Positions 3,089 through 38,486 of a stretch of 56,543 nt of DNA are shown one piece after another. The DNA comes from Paeniroseomonas aquatica (GTDB taxonomy: Bacteria > Pseudomonadota > Alphaproteobacteria > Acetobacterales > Acetobacteraceae). Under the pieces are notes generated by a model. The model made no database searches and was not told the origin of the DNA. It saw nothing but the letters and a program-made list of their open reading frames with translations. Location: NCBI RefSeq assembly GCF_030409335.1, contig NZ_JAUFPN010000313.1:1-56543 (forward strand), read 5' to 3'. Positions within the stretch are counted from its first letter, which is position 1. Each line of letters opens with the position of its first letter. The position numbers were made by a program, and so were the translations under genes.

Positions 3089-3264
3089 AATTGCGTAGGG
3101 ACGCCGCTGAGCCGATCCGCCAAATGTGACTCGCGCCAATCTGAATCTCCGGAGCTCACGATCCAAGCAAAATCAAGGTTAGCTCGAACGGTATATTAGG
3201 CGTTATCGCTGCGTCTGCGCGCGCAAACAGACTGATATTTCAGCGGCTTAACGGCCGAAGGCGG

Positions 3265-3283
3265 TTCCGCCCCTGGGCTCCAT
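3265..3283 (+). other. att-like core matching the tRNA-Phe 3' end (possible left end of the satellite)
   Basis: Nineteen bases, TTCCGCCCCTGGGCTCCAT, match 18 of 19 positions of the tRNA-Phe acceptor end at 10599-10617 (GGCACCAT there, GGCTCCAT here). No tRNA body lies upstream. Together with the longer copy at 10570-10617 it would delimit a ~7.3-kb element containing the integrase. Alternatively the true left end, with an intact tRNA-Phe, lies left of the window and this is a secondary site. Confidence 0.5.
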
Positions 3284-3313
3284 TTTGTTTTCATTGAACA
3301 ATTTGACTTGCAC

Positions 3314-3339: not shown

Positions 3340-3585
3340 GCGTCAGATTTTCTGTGCGGACTCATCCAGCCTGATTTGGCTGCCGCGGAATCTCATCATC
3401 AAAAATATCAAACCGAGGAATTGCTGGGAAAGCGCCACCCCACAGTCATGCGCTTCGGCCCCCCGTATCTGCCGAAGCCGCGGGGAGGACCCAATGGGGG
3501 CGGCTGGCGCAACCTGGGCTTGCAGCCTGAACCGGTTGCTGGGGTGCACTTAACCTGTTGCACCCTTCTGCAACGGCACCCACTA
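3340..3585. other. Intergenic stretch at the left end of the satellite
   Basis: No convincing gene. It contains several short GTTGC / GCAAC words (around 3510 and 3555-3574) that resemble the iteron core described at 3834-3945 but do not match it fully. Confidence 0.4.
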
Positions 3586-3647
3586 GCGAAGGCGCACGCC
3601 TTTGCCTGCCGTACCTCAGGAATAGCCGGAGGGACCCCAGCCCGACG
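3586..3647. repeat. Direct repeat copy 1 with internal palindrome; possible terminator of the replication operon
   Basis: About 60 bp that reappear, with roughly 80-85% identity by eye, at 8860-8921. Both copies start with the same 22 bases, built around AAGGCG-CA-CGCCTT, which can fold into a 9-10-bp hairpin, and both contain GCCGGAGGGACCC. This copy spans the stop codon (3616) of the last minus-strand gene, with the hairpin just downstream, so it could act as a terminator. Its pairing with copy 2 suggests a role tied to the element. Confidence 0.6.
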
Positions 3648-4005
3648 GGCGCCGCGATGCGCTCAGCAGGCCGGCGACCATCCGTCGTTGTTCCGCTTCC
3701 ATGCGTGCTGCCTCCACCGAACCCGGCGGCGGCAATAGCGGCTCCACCTGAATTGCCTCCCGCTCGGCGACCTCGACAGGATCGACACGATCCGCGTTGG
3801 CCTCGCCGCTGGTACAGAATGACACTTCGGCTTGGGCAACCTGGGCACCTTGAGCAATATTAGGTGCAAGACTCTGATATTGTGCAGGAATTTCTAGGCC
3901 TTGTCGGTTGCCCTCTGCCTCTCCCGCCTGGGCAACCGGGCAACCCGCGGCCAGCGCGCCCAACAGTGCCGCCGCCCAGGCTGCCGGCGGCACCGGCTCA
4001 CCCAT
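3616..4005 (-). CDS. Putative lipoprotein encoded at the end of the satellite replication operon
   Basis: A 129-aa frame with ATG at 4005 overlaps the end of the DUF927 gene by 8 bp. The N-terminus reads as a lipoprotein signal, WAAALLGALAAGC, with LAAG-C as lipobox at about residue 22. The mature part is acidic and Gln/Glu-rich and ends in a charged helix. Short repeats GCPVAQA and GAQVAQA are produced by iteron copies inside the coding sequence. No strong ribosome binding site is visible, so it probably relies on translational coupling. I do not recognise the family; small lipoproteins in mobile elements can act in entry exclusion, but that is speculation. It may instead be a non-coding iteron region that happens to stay open. 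Confidence 0.5.
   Translation of the reverse strand: MGEPVPPAAWAAALLGALAAGCPVAQAGEAEGNRQGLEIPAQYQSLAPNIAQGAQVAQAEVSFCTSGEANADRVDPVEVAEREAIQVEPLLPPPGSVEAARMEAEQRRMVAGLLSASRRPSGWGPSGYS
3834..3945. repeat. Iteron cluster A (four copies of GGTTGCCC)
   Basis: Exact copies of GGTTGCCC or its complement lie at 3834-3841 (minus), 3906-3913 (plus), 3930-3937 (minus) and 3938-3945 (minus, in tandem with the previous one); a near copy, GGGCACC, is at 3843-3849. The same word forms cluster B at 8927-9040. The clusters sit either side of the primase/helicase genes. In phage P4 the replicase binds short iterons at two separated sites, ori and crr, so a replication role is plausible. Confidence 0.6.
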
Positions 4006-6451
4006 CGGCGAAGATCGCTGGCAGGATGTGATAGGCGCGGGCACCCTTGGGCCGACCGGGCAGCGAACACCGGCAGGCGGGCTTGCCGTCGCCCGGATCG
4101 GCGCGGAGGTACCCCCGCGCCACCATCTCCCGCGCCAGCGCGCCGGCATCGAAGCCGGTGGCGACCTCGGCCTTCCATGTCTCGGGCAGGATGAAGAATT
4201 CAGTCCCGTCGCCGGATGGGGCAGGGCGCCGAAAGCCGGCTAGATAGACCCGCTCGGCCCCGGTTGCCGTCTCTCCAGCCTCATCGCTCCCCAGCAGCCG
4301 GAAGCGACCTTCAGCATTGCGTTCGAGGAAAGCCCGCACCTGGGCAATCCCGGCCTCGAACTCGGCCGGACCGTCACCACCCCGGCTGCGCCGCCAGTCG
4401 ACAAAGCATCGCGCCGCCGCCCACACGGCCTCGCTCTCGGGCCAGGGCAAGATGCCCAGCACCCGCGCCAACTCCCCGCCCGCGGCGATGATGGCGAAGC
4501 GACCGGCGACCCTGGCAACTTGGCCGTCCGCGCCCTTCGGCACATGGGCGGCGAGGAACACCCGGCGGAACTCCGCCACCGCCGCCGCCGCCGCGCCCGG
4601 ATCGGCCAGGATACGCCGCAGGAATTCCGGCCCGGCCGTGCCGTAGCAACGCCCCGCATCCGCCTTCATGCGATCCGCGAAGGCGCGGCCATCTGGCGCA
4701 TCGTGCAGCGCCTCGAACACGCCGATGCCGGCGCCGGCATCGGCGGGAAGATCGACCACGCGCACCGCCATGCCCGCTGCAGCGCGCAGCCGCGTGCCGG
4801 CCTCGGCCATCTTATCGGCAATGCCGACTTCACCGGAGGACAGGAACAACACCCGCCATTCCGCCGATCTTCGGCCGCCGCCGTCGCGCTGCGCCCGTGC
4901 CTTGCCGCTGCCATTCGCCAGCATGTAGGCGATGGCGCCCACCGCGCGCGGATCGACCTCGCCCATTTCGTCCAAGGTCAAAAGCATGTCGCAATGCGCT
5001 GCGGCCAGGGCTTCCAAGCCGTTGTCTGTAGCCCGCCAGCGTTGCAGCCAGCCACGAACCCCGCCGCCGCCCCATACGCTGCCCGCCGCCACCAACGCAG
5101 CGGACTTGCCCTTGCTGGATGCGCCCCGGAAATGGACGCCCCCACCCTCCGCCCCAATCAAGCCCAGCAGCGGCGCGGCGAAGGCAGCCGACACCGCCAG
5201 CACCAACCGGGAGTTTCCGGCGCTATGCGCGGCGACGCTCGCGCGCCAATCGTCCAGGGTTCCGGCCGCGGCGACCGGCGGCAGCACTTCGGGCCTTTCC
5301 GTTTGCAGCCGCACCGGCTCCGATCCGGCGAAGCCGATGGTTTCCCGCGGCAGGACGAATACCCGCCCCGCTGGCGTCTCAAGCCAGCCCAGCCGGGCGA
5401 CGATGCGGACCCGTGCCGCCGGGCGGGATCGCATGAGATAGGTCGCCAGCCCTTCCCTTGCCCGCCTGGCCGTAGAGATGAACAGCCCGCCGCGCAGCAG
5501 CCGCGCGCGGACCTCGGCGCAGTCACCGGCCAGCAGCGCGCGAGGCATCGCCCATTCATGGGTGCGGCCATCATCATCCCGCCAGCGCAGCAGCGCGCCC
5601 CAATCCTCGCCCTCCCCGTCGTGGGTGCCGGCGATGACTTCCAGCGGACCGCAGACATGCACTGGCGGCTTGTCCTCATCATCGGCGGCGAGGAACACCC
5701 CATCCCGCTGCATGGTGAAGCCGGGCGGCAGCGTCGGCGGCTTCACCGGCTCGGCTGCGGCAGCGGCGACCATGGCGCGCAGCCGATCAGCCGTCACGTC
5801 CGGCGGTGGTGCATCGGCCAGGTCCCACTTCGCCGGCCAACTCCCCGGCACGCCGACCACACCGACCCGCCGGGCACCGGCAGTCCGTGCCAGCCGCGCA
5901 ACCTCCGCGGCATAGGCCGCGCCTTCCGTGTCATTGTCAGGCCAGACGATGACAACCCGCCCGCGCAGCGCCGACCAGTCCGCCTTCGCTGCCGCCTTCG
6001 CGCCGCTCGGCGAAGTGATCGCCACATGCTCGGGAAACAGCGCCGCCGCCGCCTCCGCTGCCTTCTCCCCTTCCGTCACCACCACGGGCGCCGCTGGCCG
6101 CGCTGCCAACGCATCCAGACGGAATAGCGGGCGCAACACGGGCGGGGCAGCCCATTGCCAGCCCTCCCGCTTGCCGCGCCGCCCAAAGGTGAAGGGCAGC
6201 ACTTCCTTGCCGGCTTCCGTCTTGAATCGGCACACCGCAAACAGCAGGGCGCCGGCCGCATCGTGGTAACGCCACACCGCGGCCGGCTTGCCCAGCCGAT
6301 GATGCCGGATCGCGTCCGGCAGCGGTGCCGGCGCGGGAAGGATGGCGGCGAAGGCTTCCCCCCGGCCGGCGGGAGGATCGGCGGCCGTGGGGGGCTTCCC
6401 GCCGCCATCTTGGGCACCTGGCAGCGGCGCGAAGGGGTCCGCCTCATCCAT
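3998..6451 (-). CDS. TOPRIM / DUF927 replicative helicase-primase of the satellite
   Basis: 817 aa, ATG at 6451. Residues ~1-100 are a linker and primase-associated region; ~115-215 form a TOPRIM-like fold (VVVTEGEKAAEAAAALF, then VVIVWPDNDTEG with the acidic pair). From ~residue 290 onward is a DUF927-type helicase: Walker A GASSKGKSAA (around residue 440), then Walker B MLLTLDEMGE and an arginine-rich sensor region. DUF927 proteins are hexameric-helicase-like replication proteins of phages, satellites and integrative elements, often paired with TOPRIM primase domains. The start overlaps the preceding primase N-domain gene by 8 bp and the stop overlaps the putative lipoprotein gene, so it sits in a tightly coupled operon. 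It probably drives autonomous replication of the excised element, using the flanking iterons. Confidence 0.85.
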   Translation of the reverse strand: MDEADPFAPLPGAQDGGGKPPTAADPPAGRGEAFAAILPAPAPLPDAIRHHRLGKPAAVWRYHDAAGALLFAVCRFKTEAGKEVLPFTFGRRGKREGWQWAAPPVLRPLFRLDALAARPAAPVVVTEGEKAAEAAAALFPEHVAITSPSGAKAAAKADWSALRGRVVIVWPDNDTEGAAYAAEVARLARTAGARRVGVVGVPGSWPAKWDLADAPPPDVTADRLRAMVAAAAAEPVKPPTLPPGFTMQRDGVFLAADDEDKPPVHVCGPLEVIAGTHDGEGEDWGALLRWRDDDGRTHEWAMPRALLAGDCAEVRARLLRGGLFISTARRAREGLATYLMRSRPAARVRIVARLGWLETPAGRVFVLPRETIGFAGSEPVRLQTERPEVLPPVAAAGTLDDWRASVAAHSAGNSRLVLAVSAAFAAPLLGLIGAEGGGVHFRGASSKGKSAALVAAGSVWGGGGVRGWLQRWRATDNGLEALAAAHCDMLLTLDEMGEVDPRAVGAIAYMLANGSGKARAQRDGGGRRSAEWRVLFLSSGEVGIADKMAEAGTRLRAAAGMAVRVVDLPADAGAGIGVFEALHDAPDGRAFADRMKADAGRCYGTAGPEFLRRILADPGAAAAAVAEFRRVFLAAHVPKGADGQVARVAGRFAIIAAGGELARVLGILPWPESEAVWAAARCFVDWRRSRGGDGPAEFEAGIAQVRAFLERNAEGRFRLLGSDEAGETATGAERVYLAGFRRPAPSGDGTEFFILPETWKAEVATGFDAGALAREMVARGYLRADPGDGKPACRCSLPGRPKGARAYHILPAIFADG

Positions 6452-6764
6452 GGCCGCGATCCTCCACCGCGATGCCCAGCATGGCGGCGATGCGACGTGC
6501 CGCTTCGGCTTGCGGGATGCGGAAGATGGCGGCGGCGAGGCTCACCGGATCGCCGCCCTTCTCCCCCGTAGCGAAGTCCTGCCAGGCGCCGGCCCGCGCG
6601 CCGAACAGCCGGACGCCCAGGCTGCCGCCGGCCTCGCCGCCCAGGCTGCCGCAGCGCCATTCCGGGCCGATCCGCCGGCCGCCTGGCAGCCAGCGGGCGC
6701 AAAGGTGTTCGAGGTGCGGCAGCGCCGCGGCATTGATCGCGGTGAAGTCCAGGGGGGTGGGCAT
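6444..6764 (-). CDS. Primase N-terminal domain-like small protein
   Basis: 106 aa, ATG at 6764, one base overlapping the preceding stop (TGATG). The core reads W-C-G-S-L-G-G-E, then GGSLGVRLFGARAGAWQDFA followed by TGEKGGDPVSL. This matches the pattern seen at the N-terminus of many phage primase-helicases, upstream of TOPRIM, where DNA or zinc binding occurs. Only one Cys is present, so a canonical CHC2 zinc site is absent. Being a separate ORF ahead of the TOPRIM/DUF927 protein, it looks like a split primase. The frame is also open upstream to 7469, but codon use and the overlap with the neighbouring gene support the internal start. Confidence 0.7.
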   Translation of the reverse strand: MPTPLDFTAINAAALPHLEHLCARWLPGGRRIGPEWRCGSLGGEAGGSLGVRLFGARAGAWQDFATGEKGGDPVSLAAAIFRIPQAEAARRIAAMLGIAVEDRGHG

Positions 6765-7012
6765 CAGGCGCCGTCCTCCGAATCGCTCGGCACCACCACT
6801 GCCAGCAGGCGCGGCGGGAAGCGATCGGCGCCGGCCGCGCGGATCATGTCGGCGCCCAGGCGGGAACCGTAGGTCTCGAATACCGCCAGCAGGTCCGCGC
6901 CGGCCGGGTGGGTTTGGGCGACCTCCGCCACCGCCTCTGCGAAGGCACGAGCGCCCAACGCGTGCAGGCGCGCCGCCGCGCGGTGCCAGCGCATCTGCGA
7001 CAGCGCGTTCAT
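6764..7012 (-). CDS. Small helical protein of unknown function in the satellite operon
   Basis: 82 aa starting at ATG 7012, which overlaps the preceding stop by 4 bp (ATGA); an upstream start at 7057 would run deep into the previous gene. It is helical, Ala-rich and has no Cys cluster or membrane segment. I recognise no family. The overlap arrangement on both sides is the main evidence that it is real. Confidence 0.6.
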   Translation of the reverse strand: MNALSQMRWHRAAARLHALGARAFAEAVAEVAQTHPAGADLLAVFETYGSRLGADMIRAAGADRFPPRLLAVVVPSDSEDGA

Positions 7013-7281
7013 CGGGCGCCACCGTCGCGCATGGCGGGGGCGGCGATCGATTCCCACGCGCGGACATTCCCACGATACCGGCGCAACAGAGCGCCGGAAG
7101 CCATGCCGGCGAAGCGCAGCGCGTAGCCCTCCGCGGGGCTACGGTCGGGCGGGCAGTGCGGCGCGCGGTGCCCGGCCTCGGCGCTATGAACGTGCAGCCC
7201 GCCACAGAACGGGCAGGGCACCATCCAGCGCGCGGGATCACCGGGCACGCCGTCGGCGGCGAGGACCGGCGCGCTACGCAT
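7009..7281 (-). CDS. Small zinc-ribbon-like protein of the satellite operon
   Basis: 90 aa, ATG 7281, overlapping the AlpA-like gene by 8 bp. A metal-binding pattern CPFCGGLHVH...H..PHC (residues ~23-43) suggests one zinc site; the C-terminal half is basic and helical (GALLRRYRGNVRAWES). Such proteins often accompany primase genes in satellites, where they may help DNA binding, but the exact role is unknown. Confidence 0.6.
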   Translation of the reverse strand: MRSAPVLAADGVPGDPARWMVPCPFCGGLHVHSAEAGHRAPHCPPDRSPAEGYALRFAGMASGALLRRYRGNVRAWESIAAPAMRDGGAR

Positions 7282-7504
7282 CGGCGCTGCCCTTTACCGC
7301 CGCGGCCAACTCTGCCGCGCGGTGTGCGAAGGTGCGCCCGGCCGCCCAGGCTTCCACGTCCAGCCGCCGGTAGAGGATGCGCCGGGCACCCGCCCGGATG
7401 AAGGCGGGACCCGTGCCTTCGGCCCGCCACCGCTGCGCCGTGCGGGACTTCACCCGCAGCAGTCGGCACAACTCCGCCTCGTCGAGAAAAGCATCGTCAC
7501 TCAT
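7274..7504 (-). CDS. AlpA-family excisionase / transcriptional regulator
   Basis: 76 aa from ATG 7504. A compact MerR/AlpA-like winged helix covers the protein: LDEAELCRLLRVKSRTAQRW, followed by RAEGTGPAFIRAGARRILY and LDVEAWAAGRTF. This is the usual DNA-binding domain of AlpA/excisionase-type proteins of P4-like islands, which activate integrase or early operons and direct excision. An upstream ATG at 7657 is rejected because its N-terminal extension has no domain character. It is the first gene of the overlapping replication operon, 83 bp after the 356-aa gene. Confidence 0.8.
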   Translation of the reverse strand: MSDDAFLDEAELCRLLRVKSRTAQRWRAEGTGPAFIRAGARRILYRRLDVEAWAAGRTFAHRAAELAAAVKGSADA

Positions 7505-7587
7505 TGTCGGACCTCGCGTTGACGCGGCAAAAGTCGCCGCTGGGCGCAAGGTCAGGGCAGAGAGGACACGGAAATAGCCGACACGAT

Positions 7588-8658
7588 TTAATCGGCGCGG
7601 TGATTCGATTTCTTTCGGCCCGGCTTTTTCCAGGCATCGGGCGCCACGGCGCCCCAAGCCCGGTCGAACGCCCGATCCGACGCGCCAATGGGCATTGTCG
7701 CTGCCTCGTTCCGCAGGAGAGCCTTGGGCCGCGGTGGCGATTCGGGATGCTGCACCGCCAGGTCATGAATCCATTGGCGGCACCGTGTTTCAGCCGCTGC
7801 GGTGCCTACTGAAATGGATGGCGGCTTGCGGACCTCGATCATCGCGTAGTGCGGCAGCGGGCCAGGCGCCCCATCTTCCGGGCGAAGGGCGGCGCCGTAC
7901 CGTTCCCATTTCAGTAGGTAGCGCGGGTGACGCCATGCGCTGGGCAGTATGTCCACCCGTTGCGCCTCGGCAGTATCATCGCGCACGCCGGATGCAAGCC
8001 ATTCGCCGGATCGAAGCCGATCGAACATCGCACAAGCCAGCCGATCAACCTCACGCTGCCTCCACCACGCAAGCGCCCCGCGCTTGTTCCGATTGGGTGC
8101 ATCCTTCCAGTAGCTGCGCGGCTTGGTGCCAGCTTTCGTTTCCCATACCGCGACCGTCCACAACGCTACCGTCATATTGCCGACCAAGCTTGGCTTTGGC
8201 AGCGCGAAATTGCCATGCGGGCCATCGGTCGTGGCGTTGAAAGCCGCCACTTCGGGCGCGCAAAAGATCAGCTCACCAACGACGGTTTTGAACGGCCCGC
8301 CTGTCCAGTCCGCTGGCATGGCATGGAACACCGGATCGGGAGCAACCTGCTGCGGCGGTTTAGGCCAAGGCACACCCAACCCATAGGCGCGCATTATTGT
8401 GAGTGTCTCCGGGGAAACGGGCACAATCGTGCCAACCTCGAAAACGCGGCCATTGTTTCGCCAATCCGCGGTCACCAATACCTGCGGCGCCTCGGCCTCA
8501 GGCATTACCCATTGGTTCGGCCCATTGGCGCCGATGATCCGTGCCGCTTCATCATCTGGAAGGTCCAAAACCTCATCCAGCGAATAGCCACGCCTTCCAT
8601 GCGCGATCTCTCCGCGCGTCACAATGATCCGCACCGCCACCCCATCCGGCAGCCCCAT
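7588..8658 (-). CDS. Protein of unknown function unique to the mobile element
   Basis: 356 aa, ATG 8658, between the integrase and the AlpA-like gene. I do not recognise the family. The N-terminus holds two short beta-rich segments of similar plan, around residues 9-45 (ending in PDDEAARIIGANGP) and 60-95 (GRVFEVGTIVPVSPETLTIM). They resemble the small single-domain modules found in phage structural and morphogenesis regions. The C-terminus has a Trp-spaced basic tail (RAFDRAWGAVAPDAWKKPG), which looks like a DNA- or protein-binding motif. Local GC is lower than in neighbouring genes. It could be an accessory (cargo) gene for helper interference or defence; this is inference from position only. 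Confidence 0.7.
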   Translation of the reverse strand: MGLPDGVAVRIIVTRGEIAHGRRGYSLDEVLDLPDDEAARIIGANGPNQWVMPEAEAPQVLVTADWRNNGRVFEVGTIVPVSPETLTIMRAYGLGVPWPKPPQQVAPDPVFHAMPADWTGGPFKTVVGELIFCAPEVAAFNATTDGPHGNFALPKPSLVGNMTVALWTVAVWETKAGTKPRSYWKDAPNRNKRGALAWWRQREVDRLACAMFDRLRSGEWLASGVRDDTAEAQRVDILPSAWRHPRYLLKWERYGAALRPEDGAPGPLPHYAMIEVRKPPSISVGTAAAETRCRQWIHDLAVQHPESPPRPKALLRNEAATMPIGASDRAFDRAWGAVAPDAWKKPGRKKSNHRAD

Positions 8659-8859
8659 CCTACGGGCGGCGCCGCGGGCCAGGGATGGGGTCCCGGCGTT
8701 CGGTCGCGACTCCTAGCGGCGCCGCCGGCAGGCTAGCCCGGCGAGGCATGGCGGCGAAACAATCACGTTAGGCAGCACGCTGCGGCCACATTTGGACCCG
8801 CGGCCCGGCCAACGGTCACGCCGTCACACCCGTAACCCTGGCCCATGACGCCTACAATG
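8659..8859. other. Upstream region of the 356-aa gene
   Basis: About 200 bp without a convincing gene between the 356-aa gene start and repeat copy 2. It presumably carries the promoter of the leftward genes, but I cannot pick out a clear -35/-10 pair. Confidence 0.4.
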
Positions 8860-8921
8860 GCGAAGGCGCACGCCTTTGCCTCCCGTACTTCCCAATCAGC
8901 CGGAGGGACCCAAAGCCCGCT
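8860..8921. repeat. Direct repeat copy 2 with internal palindrome
   Basis: Second copy of the ~60-bp element at 3586-3647, in the same orientation, sharing the first 22 bases exactly. The hairpin-forming palindrome is at 8859-8880. In this copy it lies downstream of the integrase stop (9059, minus strand) and could end integrase transcription. Iteron cluster B starts 6 bp further right, mirroring the neighbourhood of copy 1. Confidence 0.6.
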
Positions 8922-8926
8922 CCGGC

Positions 8927-9040
8927 GGTTGCCCAGGTTGCCCGGCAGCTTCGCCCTCGGGCAACCGGCCGCTTCGCCCTTCAAGCCGCAGCGGGCCGCC
9001 ATCCGGCCGCCGATGGTTGCCCATATTGCCGAGGTTGCCC
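8927..9040. repeat. Iteron cluster B (five copies of GGTTGCCC)
   Basis: Exact copies at 8927-8934, 8936-8943, 9015-9022 and 9033-9040 on the plus strand and 8959-8966 on the minus strand. The first two are in tandem at 9-bp spacing. The cluster fills the gap between repeat copy 2 and the integrase stop codon. With cluster A it brackets all replication genes. Probable binding sites for the element's replicase or a regulator. Confidence 0.65.
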
Positions 9041-9058: not shown

Positions 9059-10375
9059 TCAGGCGCGCTTGCCGCGCCGTGCCCGATGCTCGGCCATGTC
9101 CGCCACCTTGGCCGCATCCTCCGCCGCCTTGGGCTTCGCCTCGGCGCAGCGCAGCAGATGCGCCGACCAGGCTTTCACAGCCTCGGCCTTCTCTCGCTCC
9201 CATCCGTGCCGCTGATACACGCCCACAATACCGGACCGGCTGCCGCTCACATGGTTCAACAGGGCTTCGGTCACTTCCAGCCGCACGCCCAACCGCTGCA
9301 AGCCGGTGGCGACCGTCCGGCGGATATCATGCAGCGTCCAGGCGGGCAGCTTCCGGCCGCCTTCCTTCGCCGCCTTCACCATGGCCGCATCCAGCCGCGC
9401 CTTCGTCTTGCCGAAGCCGCTCGGTACCGTCTCCCGCGCGCCCTCGAACACTAGCACCGCACCGCGCCGCCGCTTCACATCCAGCAGCAGCGCCACCGCC
9501 TCCGCTGGCAGCGGAACGCTATGCGGCTTGCCGTTCTTGGTCCGGTTGCCCGGCATCGCCCACATCGCCGCGTCAAGGTGCAACTCATCCCATTGCATCC
9601 CGGCGACCTCGCCGCGCCGCTGCCCGGTCAGCAGCAGCAGCCGCACAATGCTGGACATGGGCGCATCCAGCCCGGCCGCAGCCGTCCAAAGGGCGCCGAC
9701 CTCGGCATCGGATAATACCCGCTCGCGCGCCGTCTCCCGCGCCGGCCGCGGCGTTGCTTCCCAGGGGTTCGAGGCGAGCGCGCCGCGCTTCACTGCCCAT
9801 CCCCAGCAGGCCCGCGCCACGGCCCGCAGGCGGTTTGCGGCGATCGGCCCGCGTTCGGTCTTGATGGCATCCAGAGTCCGCACCGCATCCGCCTGGGTGA
9901 AACCATCGGCCGGTGCCTTCTTCCACTCGGCCAGCGCCCGGCGAAGCTCTGCCGGCACCCGGTTTGCATAGGAGTCCGATCGCTCGGCTAGATGGTCCGC
10001 TGCCCAATGGGTGATCATGGCGTCAACCGTGTAGGTCGCCGCGGCGCGCGCAGCCTTCTCCGCTGCCTCGGCCTTGGCGGCGGCGATCCTGACCGCGCGC
10101 CGTTCGGCGACCGGATCGCGCGCATCCCGCACCTGGCCGCGCAGCGATTCAGCCTTCTTTCGTGCCTGGGCGGTGGTCAATTCCGCCCCGAAGGTGCCCA
10201 GCACCATCCGCCGTACCTTCGCCTCGACCCGATACTGGAAGATGAAGGTCCGCGTCCCGCCGGATGTGACCCGCAGCCCGAAGCCGGGCAACGCGTCATC
10301 GAACAGCAGCACATCCTTGCGGCCCTCGGGGCAGCGGGCTGCGCTCACGCTCCGATCGGCCAGGTTCAACGCCAT
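9059..10375 (-). CDS. int: Tyrosine integrase, P4 type (DUF4102 N-terminal domain)
   Basis: 438 aa, ATG 10375. N-terminal arm-binding DUF4102-like domain (residues ~10-95, FDDALPGFGLRVTSGGTRTF), then a core-binding region, then the catalytic domain: Arg in LLTGQRRGEVAGM, Lys in RTKNGKPHSVPL, H-x-x-R in LHDIRRTVATG, the second His in ALLNHVSG and the nucleophile Tyr in VGVYQRHG. All catalytic residues are present, so the enzyme looks active. It catalyses site-specific recombination between the element and the 3' end of a tRNA gene. Its start lies ~195 bp from the 48-bp tRNA-Phe 3' copy, the usual layout for such islands. Confidence 0.95.
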   Translation of the reverse strand: MALNLADRSVSAARCPEGRKDVLLFDDALPGFGLRVTSGGTRTFIFQYRVEAKVRRMVLGTFGAELTTAQARKKAESLRGQVRDARDPVAERRAVRIAAAKAEAAEKAARAAATYTVDAMITHWAADHLAERSDSYANRVPAELRRALAEWKKAPADGFTQADAVRTLDAIKTERGPIAANRLRAVARACWGWAVKRGALASNPWEATPRPARETARERVLSDAEVGALWTAAAGLDAPMSSIVRLLLLTGQRRGEVAGMQWDELHLDAAMWAMPGNRTKNGKPHSVPLPAEAVALLLDVKRRRGAVLVFEGARETVPSGFGKTKARLDAAMVKAAKEGGRKLPAWTLHDIRRTVATGLQRLGVRLEVTEALLNHVSGSRSGIVGVYQRHGWEREKAEAVKAWSAHLLRCAEAKPKAAEDAAKVADMAEHRARRGKRA

Positions 10376-10569: not shown

Positions 10570-10617
10570 GACTGAAAATCGCAGTGTCGGTGGTTCGATT
10601 CCGCCCCTGGGCACCAT
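10570..10617 (+). other. attR: 48-bp duplicated 3' half of tRNA-Phe
   Basis: The sequence runs from the anticodon loop (GACTGAAAATC, containing GAA) through a T-arm GGTGG-TTCGATT-CCGCC and acceptor strand CCTGGGC to discriminator A and CCA. No acceptor 5' strand (GCCCAGG), D-arm or B-box-like start is present upstream, so this is not a complete tRNA. It is the duplicate left when an integrase inserts into the 3' end of tRNA-Phe. The intact tRNA gene should lie at the other end of the island, on the left. Confidence 0.85.
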
Positions 10618-10812
10618 TCCATCCTGGCAAGTGCCTTTAATCACTTCAGGATATGGCGGCAGTCACAAGATGCCCCGCAGCGTATCCCACGCGCACTTGT
10701 GCTACGGTGATCCGTCCTGAAGCCTGCTGGCGCGAGTCAGCCGAAATCGATCGGCGGCTAATGGACCGTGGAGCCGCCCAATAACCTTGGGTCAGCACCA
10801 TCGGTGTTACTA

Positions 10813-38333: not shown

Positions 38334-38486
38334 GTGGTGTCCCTCATCCCGGTCTGCACGCAAGTCGGGGCAGCGCCGGGCCGCCGCCGGGATGCAGGCT
38401 AATGACCCGGCCAGGGGGTTGGGATCAGCCCGGCGTCCCGGCCCTGCCCCATGCGTCCCAAAGCGCCCCGCCGCGGGCCGGCCGCA

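Follow-up and report, generated by a model that had tools for sequence, protein, structure and literature searches.

The replication origins of phage-inducible chromosomal islands (PICIs) and Staphylococcus aureus pathogenicity islands (SaPIs) lie directly 3' of the initiator gene (PMC7581432; PMC6092414). In Gram-negative PICIs, the origin at this place consists of two iteron sets around an AT-rich region (PMC6092414), and as far as the available text of these two papers goes, one origin is described per island. In phage P4 (record X51522), type 1 repeats are located at ori (9310-9413) and at crr (4291-4590), which ends about 45 bp after the alpha gene and is labelled in the record as the "cis required region for replication". 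In this study, we analysed a 56,543-nt stretch of contig NZ_JAUFPN010000313.1 of Paeniroseomonas aquatica, the whole of which is called the window below. It contains a 7.4-kb island that encodes Rep, a protein with a DUF927 helicase domain like that of the minichromosome maintenance (MCM) proteins, and that carries two arrays of the 8-bp word GGTTGCCC, block A after the rep gene and block B after the integrase gene (int). From their sequence, we consider it somewhat probable, at roughly 0.55, that the island's own Rep binds both blocks as its cognate arrays, with block A serving as the origin and block B as an additional, inverted site, and that the two work as a pair.

Among known systems, the SaPI/PICI Rep-ori replicon is the closest to the island. 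It has a DUF927 MCM-like Rep that is homologous in sequence and fold to that of the island, and the sequence layout is also alike, since an array begins 52 bp past rep and has two sets around an AT-rich gap, two of the six slots of block A being degenerate. Because an origin after the initiator gene is already known in PICIs and SaPIs, block A is the expected part of the island and block B is the unusual one. The island differs from the SaPIs and PICIs in the TOPRIM-like domain on Rep, the six-slot layout of the arrays and the second inverted array after int. The PICI-like element (PLE) of Vibrio cholerae, a satellite with a RepA-ori system, resembles the island in having its own initiator and iterons. 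Its initiator, however, is of the RepA_N type, and in the text available a single repeat, repeat 3, is described as necessary and bound (PMC7145576). In the literature searched, whose coverage was partial, no description was found of an inverted second array after int, of alternation between joined and split arrays or of the six-slot grammar; this is not proof of novelty.

Results

Two inverted arrays of one word in the island

The preliminary description reported nine exact copies of GGTTGCCC in two blocks, and all of them were found at the positions it gave. On both strands of the window there are 13 exact copies, nine of which are inside the two blocks of about 112 bp, whereas dinucleotide shuffles (n = 100) held 3.14 on average (sd 1.85, maximum 8) and none of the 100 reached 13. 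The exact copies start at 3834, 3906, 3930 and 3938 in block A and at 8927, 8936, 8959, 9015 and 9033 in block B. The isolated single copies reported at 9544, 34767 and 44563 are correct, and there is an additional one at 950. In the 6.5-Mb genome there are four places with same-strand pairs of the word at a spacer of 0-12 bp: three belong to the island and the fourth to a decayed sister island on contig C114.

A single layout, > 9 > 23 < G > 9 > 9 >, describes both blocks, which run in opposite directions; here the numbers are start-to-start distances in bp, > and < give the direction of the iteron and G is a variable gap. Block A (3834..3945, minus strand), the likely Rep origin, has exact copies in slots 1-3 and 6, five of eight matching bases in slot 4 and six of eight in slot 5, giving a layout score of 35/40 by hand. 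Block B (8927..9040, plus strand) begins 18 bp past the integrase stop and scores 37/40 in the scan described below, with slot 5 degenerate and the other five slots exact. The gap of block A is AT-rich (0.57 against 0.31 for the island), whereas that of block B is GC-rich (AT 0.23), so block A is the likelier site of melting.

A six-slot module in related islands

A related Rep was found at 44 named loci and in 93 of 397 sampled genomes of the family at E 1e-60 or better; wider stretches were taken around 60 of the matches in the family genomes. Loci of all sets are numbered with L below. The layout was suggested by a map of the word copies, tolerating one mismatch, at the 39 loci for which a candidate word was available; 30 of these loci hold a module scoring at least 34/40 in the later scan. 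That scan was blind to the word and used the layout only, with G searched from 30 to 58, over 119 sequences (1,726,538 bp), and one order-3 Markov shuffle of each sequence served as the control. It gave 55 modules of at least 34/40 in 37 loci, and none of at least 32 in the shuffles. In all there were 57 matches of at least 32; the other two, at 32 (L140 and L175), have GC-rich words and were not counted. A reversed-sequence control of a first, looser scan had returned 71 matches against 71 in the real sequences. It is invalid because a search of both strands makes reversal equal to complementation, which retains the layout, and Markov shuffles were therefore used instead.

The G values of the 55 modules fall at 31-35 (20 modules), 46 (one) and 52-56 (34), the two main classes being about two helical turns apart. 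The module gap is more AT-rich than the locus (0.47 versus 0.36; Wilcoxon p 6e-9), and this is also the case at most B sites of the relatives. The module is present in 33 of 64 Acetobacteraceae loci, that is, in 25/32 with a full-length Rep match and in 8/32 with a shorter one; L078, counted here as a miss, was outside the scan but fits the layout when mapped by hand. In other alphaproteobacterial families 2 of 12 loci have it (L186 and L188), and it was found in 0 of 30 other DUF927 loci, which are mostly gammaproteobacterial.

Words of the islands

For counting words, loci with a missing, frameshifted or duplicated rep end were left out together with L166, whose end is short, and 94 were kept. 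The preliminary description expected clusters of the word around homologous DUF927 operons. Iteron clusters do recur there, though with other words: GGTTGCCC itself is unclustered in the relatives, 38 of 75 loci holding any copy and none more than one per 250 bp, and it is the layout that recurs instead. The words after rep differ between islands and include TGGAACAC, TGCCCGAC, GTGTAACC, TGTCCCCG and TGTGCCAC. In 33 of the 94 loci, the 450 bp after rep hold four or more copies of one 8-mer. This word clusters elsewhere in its own locus at least 3-fold in 10/33 and at least 2-fold in 13/33, and words of foreign islands do so in 7/693 and 11/693 tests, respectively. Judged from the words, some of the foreign matches are the own word shifted, and others, for example in L128 and L129, seem to be separate arrays in the vicinity. 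Thus, the word varies between islands, yet one island tends to have the same word at both of its sites. Without the layout, a test for double clusters of the same word is weak in GC-rich loci (24/94 loci versus 35/470 shuffles).

By pattern search, close pairs of GGTTGCCC occur in 57 of the 397 family genomes; outside genome G000, none of those listed is less than 100 kb from a listed rep match. The viral collection held one partial relative.

Joined and split forms

In some islands an inverted and a direct module adjoin each other after rep. The neighbouring iterons of the two modules are 30-31 bp apart, start to start, in L129, L132, L133, L134, L136 and L142, and 21-22 bp apart in L135 and L138. 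The split form, with one array after rep and an inverted one upstream, is found in the window and in L013, L015, L122, L124, L125, L128, L139, L141, L148 and L149; the array of L139 lies 2.3 kb past rep. L132 has the joined pair and an upstream module as well.

An upstream module is present in 16 of the 64 family loci. Among modules of at least 34, with L041 and L058 included, all 16 upstream ones are inverted, and the downstream ones are direct in 28 cases and inverted in nine. With integrases detected by a profile built in this analysis, eight of the 16 upstream modules start 18-97 bp past an integrase stop, two start at 423 and 557 bp, and six have no detected integrase before them. In 15 of the 16, a distance of 4 to 268 bp separates the module from the start of the next mechanically called open reading frame (ORF; 80 aa or more). 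In L149 the upstream array, which is not a called module, starts 28 bp after int, and in L155 the array comes first and the integrase after it. That both sites lie between the att (attachment) cores was checked for the window only. The upstream module at L129:17296 has a word (TGGAACAC) that differs from that of the downstream pair of L129 (TGCCCGAC), and it may belong to another island.

Rep and its C-terminal domain

Rep (817 aa; 3998..6451, minus strand) contains a TOPRIM-like domain, a DUF927 MCM-like helicase and a C-terminal winged-helix-like domain (about residues 694-817). The DUF927 match is strong (PF06048, 5.6e-82), and the Toprim match (0.00015) is just under the Pfam cut-off. In a phmmer search, Rep found two solved relatives, 8tch (SaPIbov1 Rep; 3.4e-10) and 5dgk, which is Cch of the staphylococcal cassette chromosome mec (SCCmec). 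An AlphaFold2 model of Rep was built from 34 sequences and had a mean predicted local distance difference test (pLDDT) score of 87.8. With this model Foldseek gave 5dgk (4e-25) and 8tch (2.8e-18), followed, far more weakly, by MCM proteins and DnaG-type primases. Rep is therefore a homologue of SaPIbov1 Rep and SCCmec Cch, both MCM-like helicases, in sequence as well as in fold; Cch, of the same DUF927 family and fold, was compared by its helicase alone.

The C-terminal domain modelled alone had a pLDDT of 92.3. It had no Foldseek match at E 0.001; the best was 8tch (probability 1.00, TM by query 0.64, E 0.016) and the next was an oriT-binding accessory protein of a plasmid relaxosome. The C-terminal domain of P4 alpha (1ka8) was not among the 50 listed of 136 matches, so a DNA-binding domain common with P4 is not supported. 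Among 23 dereplicated elements, iteron similarity tracks the identity of the Rep C-terminal domain when the helicase is allowed for (partial r 0.19, p 0.0035), and it does not track helicase identity when the C-terminal domain is allowed for (r 0.02, p 0.38). The most associated Rep columns include residues 789-791, 794 and, in the tail, 815 and 817, uncorrected for the many columns. These correlations lend modest support to the idea that Rep is the reader of the iteron word.

Comparison with phage P4

The preliminary description likened the two blocks to the two-site origin of P4, served here by a replicase of a different family. The topology of this comparison is sound: P4 also has 8-bp iterons at two sites, of which one, crr, is about 45 bp past the replicase gene and the other is upstream of the operon. 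The replicase family is indeed different. P4 alpha has the domains Zn_Ribbon_Prim, Toprim_3, D5_N, DUF5906 and Pox_D5, Rep is not alpha-type, and BLASTP of P4 alpha against Rep found no similarity. P4 crr is doubled and has a layout other than the six-slot one, and SaPI/PICI is nearer to the island than P4 is. In addition, the AT-rich ori of P4 is the upstream site, unlike in the island. P4 ori reads > 10 > 11 > 22 < 43 > 10 >, with a gap AT of 0.83. It resembles the six-slot module in having a direct set, 22 bp, an inverted copy, an AT-rich gap and a direct set; it differs in that the copies number 3+1+2, with the three and the two at opposite ends, and in its pitch of 10-11 bp. Its gap of 43 lies between the two gap classes described above, about one turn from each, and the scan did not call it.

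Gene content of the island and its surroundings

All genes of the island are on the minus strand. From right to left it is composed of attR, the integrase, block B, box D1, an int-alpA-like RNA, a 356-aa ORF, an AlpA-like gene, three small ORFs, Rep, block A, a second box D1 and attL. The presence of an integrase and of att repeats derived from the 3' end of tRNA-Phe marks it as an integrative element at a tRNA. attR (10570..10619, plus strand; 50 bp) is 100% identical to C114:38144-38193, which covers the 3' part of tRNA-Phe together with its edge, and the intact tRNA-Phe is at C114:38115-38190. The attL core GGTTCCGCCCCTGGGCTCCATT (3263..3284, plus strand), at the left island end, is a degenerate relative of the 3' end of tRNA-Phe, judging from a visual comparison with attR and the intact gene, and has one mismatch over the 20 bp shared. 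Because no tRNA was found in the window and the attL core differs from tRNA-Phe, the island likely sits at a secondary insertion site. The decayed sister island is directly after the intact tRNA-Phe (C114:38115-39616, within L058, C114:28000-47000). It has its own att repeats, an iteron module called by the scan (38/40) and the end of a rep gene whose protein is 82-85% identical, and then comes what reads like another integrase gene.

The tyrosine integrase (9059..10375, minus strand; 438 aa) matches PF00589 (2.9e-16) and Arm-DNA-bind_3 (2.3e-15). The first gene after block B encodes a 356-aa protein (7588..8658, minus strand) with no match in Pfam, NCBIfam or PHROGs. It is followed by an AlpA/excisionase-like helix-turn-helix protein (7274..7504, minus strand), which matches HTH_17 (2.4e-10, in the longer frame 7274-7657) and PHROG 66 (1e-9), the latter being excisionase and transcriptional regulator. 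Two small ORFs (7009..7281 and 6764..7057, both minus strand) have no family match. The same is true of a 107-aa ORF (6444..6765, minus strand) that overlaps the rep start and whose sequence is reminiscent of a detached primase zinc-domain-type protein. Among the seven island ORFs searched, there was no match to a packaging, capsid, terminase, interference or partition family, and the island can be called only a putative satellite.

Between block B and the operon there is an int-alpA RNA (RF02996; 8655..8723, minus strand) of 25.4 bits (E 0.16), below the gathering score of 35.8; in two of eight relatives scanned (L122 and L125) this RNA is above the gathering score. Box D1 is a direct repeat of 57 bp with 84% identity between copies, one beside each block: copy 1 (3581..3637, minus strand) lies between block A and attL, and copy 2 (8855..8911, minus strand) adjoins block B. 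It contains an imperfect dyad (GGCGAAGGCGCACGCCTTTGCC in copy 2), and the two copies share one orientation, whereas the iteron modules are mutually inverted. A diverged form was seen by eye on C114 near 38430-38485. No support was found for D1 as a terminator. Just left of the island, at 184-1635, there is a protein with a PglZ domain (PF08665, 5.5e-21), a domain known from bacteriophage exclusion (BREX) defence loci.

Discussion

How the two blocks might work can be outlined as follows. The C-terminal domain of Rep would read the iterons. Block A would be the origin, its AT-rich gap between the iteron sets being the place where the MCM-like helicase opens the DNA. With its six iterons, each module may seat a single Rep hexamer, and the mutual inversion of the two modules would fit two rings that face in opposite directions. 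Blocks A and B would thus form a pair of opposite polarity, bridged by Rep through DNA looping and opening at A, and the split pair would do the job of the neighbouring inverted pair in some relatives. Rep binding, the single hexamer per module, looping and replication are what we infer from the arrays and from the Rep family.

In a crude test (commonest 8-mer, 450 bp after rep) block A by itself is unexceptional, since 32 of 364 control windows equal it; what makes the observation strong is the spacing, the matching of the two blocks and the evidence from the relatives. Several findings weigh against the proposed reading. Block A was not called by the layout scan, as its slot 4 falls short of the scan minimum of six, and slot 5 has just six. 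The GC-rich gap of block B makes B unlikely to melt. If each site started one fork, the whole circle would not be copied: single forks would meet either near att or within the operon, with the rest remaining uncopied, so that looping or a bidirectional block A would be needed. Among the relatives, some islands (L144 and L147) show one module but no second site, and L130 has an upstream module but an array, 2.45 kb after rep, that departs from the layout. The close relatives L123, L126 and L127 (48-53% identity) have no called module. In L151, L152, L154, L161, L165 and L170, repeated words near rep do not fit the six-slot layout and are possibly other origin types. Finally, the modules are not independent, their 31 elements falling to 23 at 90% helicase identity.

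A more specific form of the pairing can be put forward only tentatively, at rather less than even odds. The two inverted six-iteron modules, with one MCM-like Rep hexamer each, may be the halves of a split bidirectional origin, which adjoin after rep in some islands and are here separated by the operon and rejoined by looping. In its order of parts (direct set, 22-23 bp, inverted copy, AT-rich gap whose length is helically phased, direct set), the array grammar resembles P4 ori, even though the helicase of P4 belongs to an unrelated family; the DNA architecture would then be older than the enzyme or have converged independently of it.

The chief rival concerns block B. If block A is a PICI/SaPI-type origin and block B an operator, Rep at B would repress or time the operon that ends in rep. 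B does lie between int and the operon, an ORF follows within 4 to 268 bp in nearly all upstream cases in the relatives, and the gap of B is GC-rich here; moreover, iteron plasmids are known to regulate themselves through iteron-like operators. An operator, however, needs few sites, whereas B has five exact copies in a six-slot layout. In most relatives the gap of the B site is more AT-rich than the locus, and in eight other loci the inverted module adjoins the direct one after rep. A sigma-70 scan near B found no promoter; this counts a little against an operator but neither supports nor excludes one in this host, which may use other promoters. On balance we regard the operator as unlikely, though it is the most serious of the competing explanations. 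It is also conceivable that A and B are independent origins, each able to start alone, as they have the same layout and the gap is AT-enriched at most B sites of the relatives. In this island, however, only the gap of A is AT-rich (0.57 against 0.23), and P4 needs both of its sites in cis, which makes independent origins improbable.

Block B might instead be a non-functional relic of a duplicated origin, given that some islands do without it and that one of its slots is degenerate here. A relic would drift, yet the paired sites tend to keep the word specific to their island and 16 of 16 upstream modules keep one orientation, so we give this explanation very little weight. Slightly less still is given to the view that the arrays serve partition, packaging or accessory functions in recombination and are not replication sites at all. 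Repeat arrays are indeed found at centromeres and near att sites as well. On the other hand, the island ORFs searched include no partition or packaging family, the att cores are 550 bp from A and 1.5 kb from B, and the word covaries with the C-terminal domain of Rep. Arm sites of the integrase were rejected on account of distance and of the link to Rep.

The eukaryotic MCM helicase has relatives in the Rep helicases of the SaPI type, which are thought to load themselves at an origin. A family of islands with one layout, many words and both joined and split forms is a ready test of how such a helicase recognizes DNA. It also tests how many subunits an array takes and whether two oppositely facing rings are needed. 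In addition, the word-blind layout makes it possible to look for candidate origins in unknown islands with nothing but their sequence.

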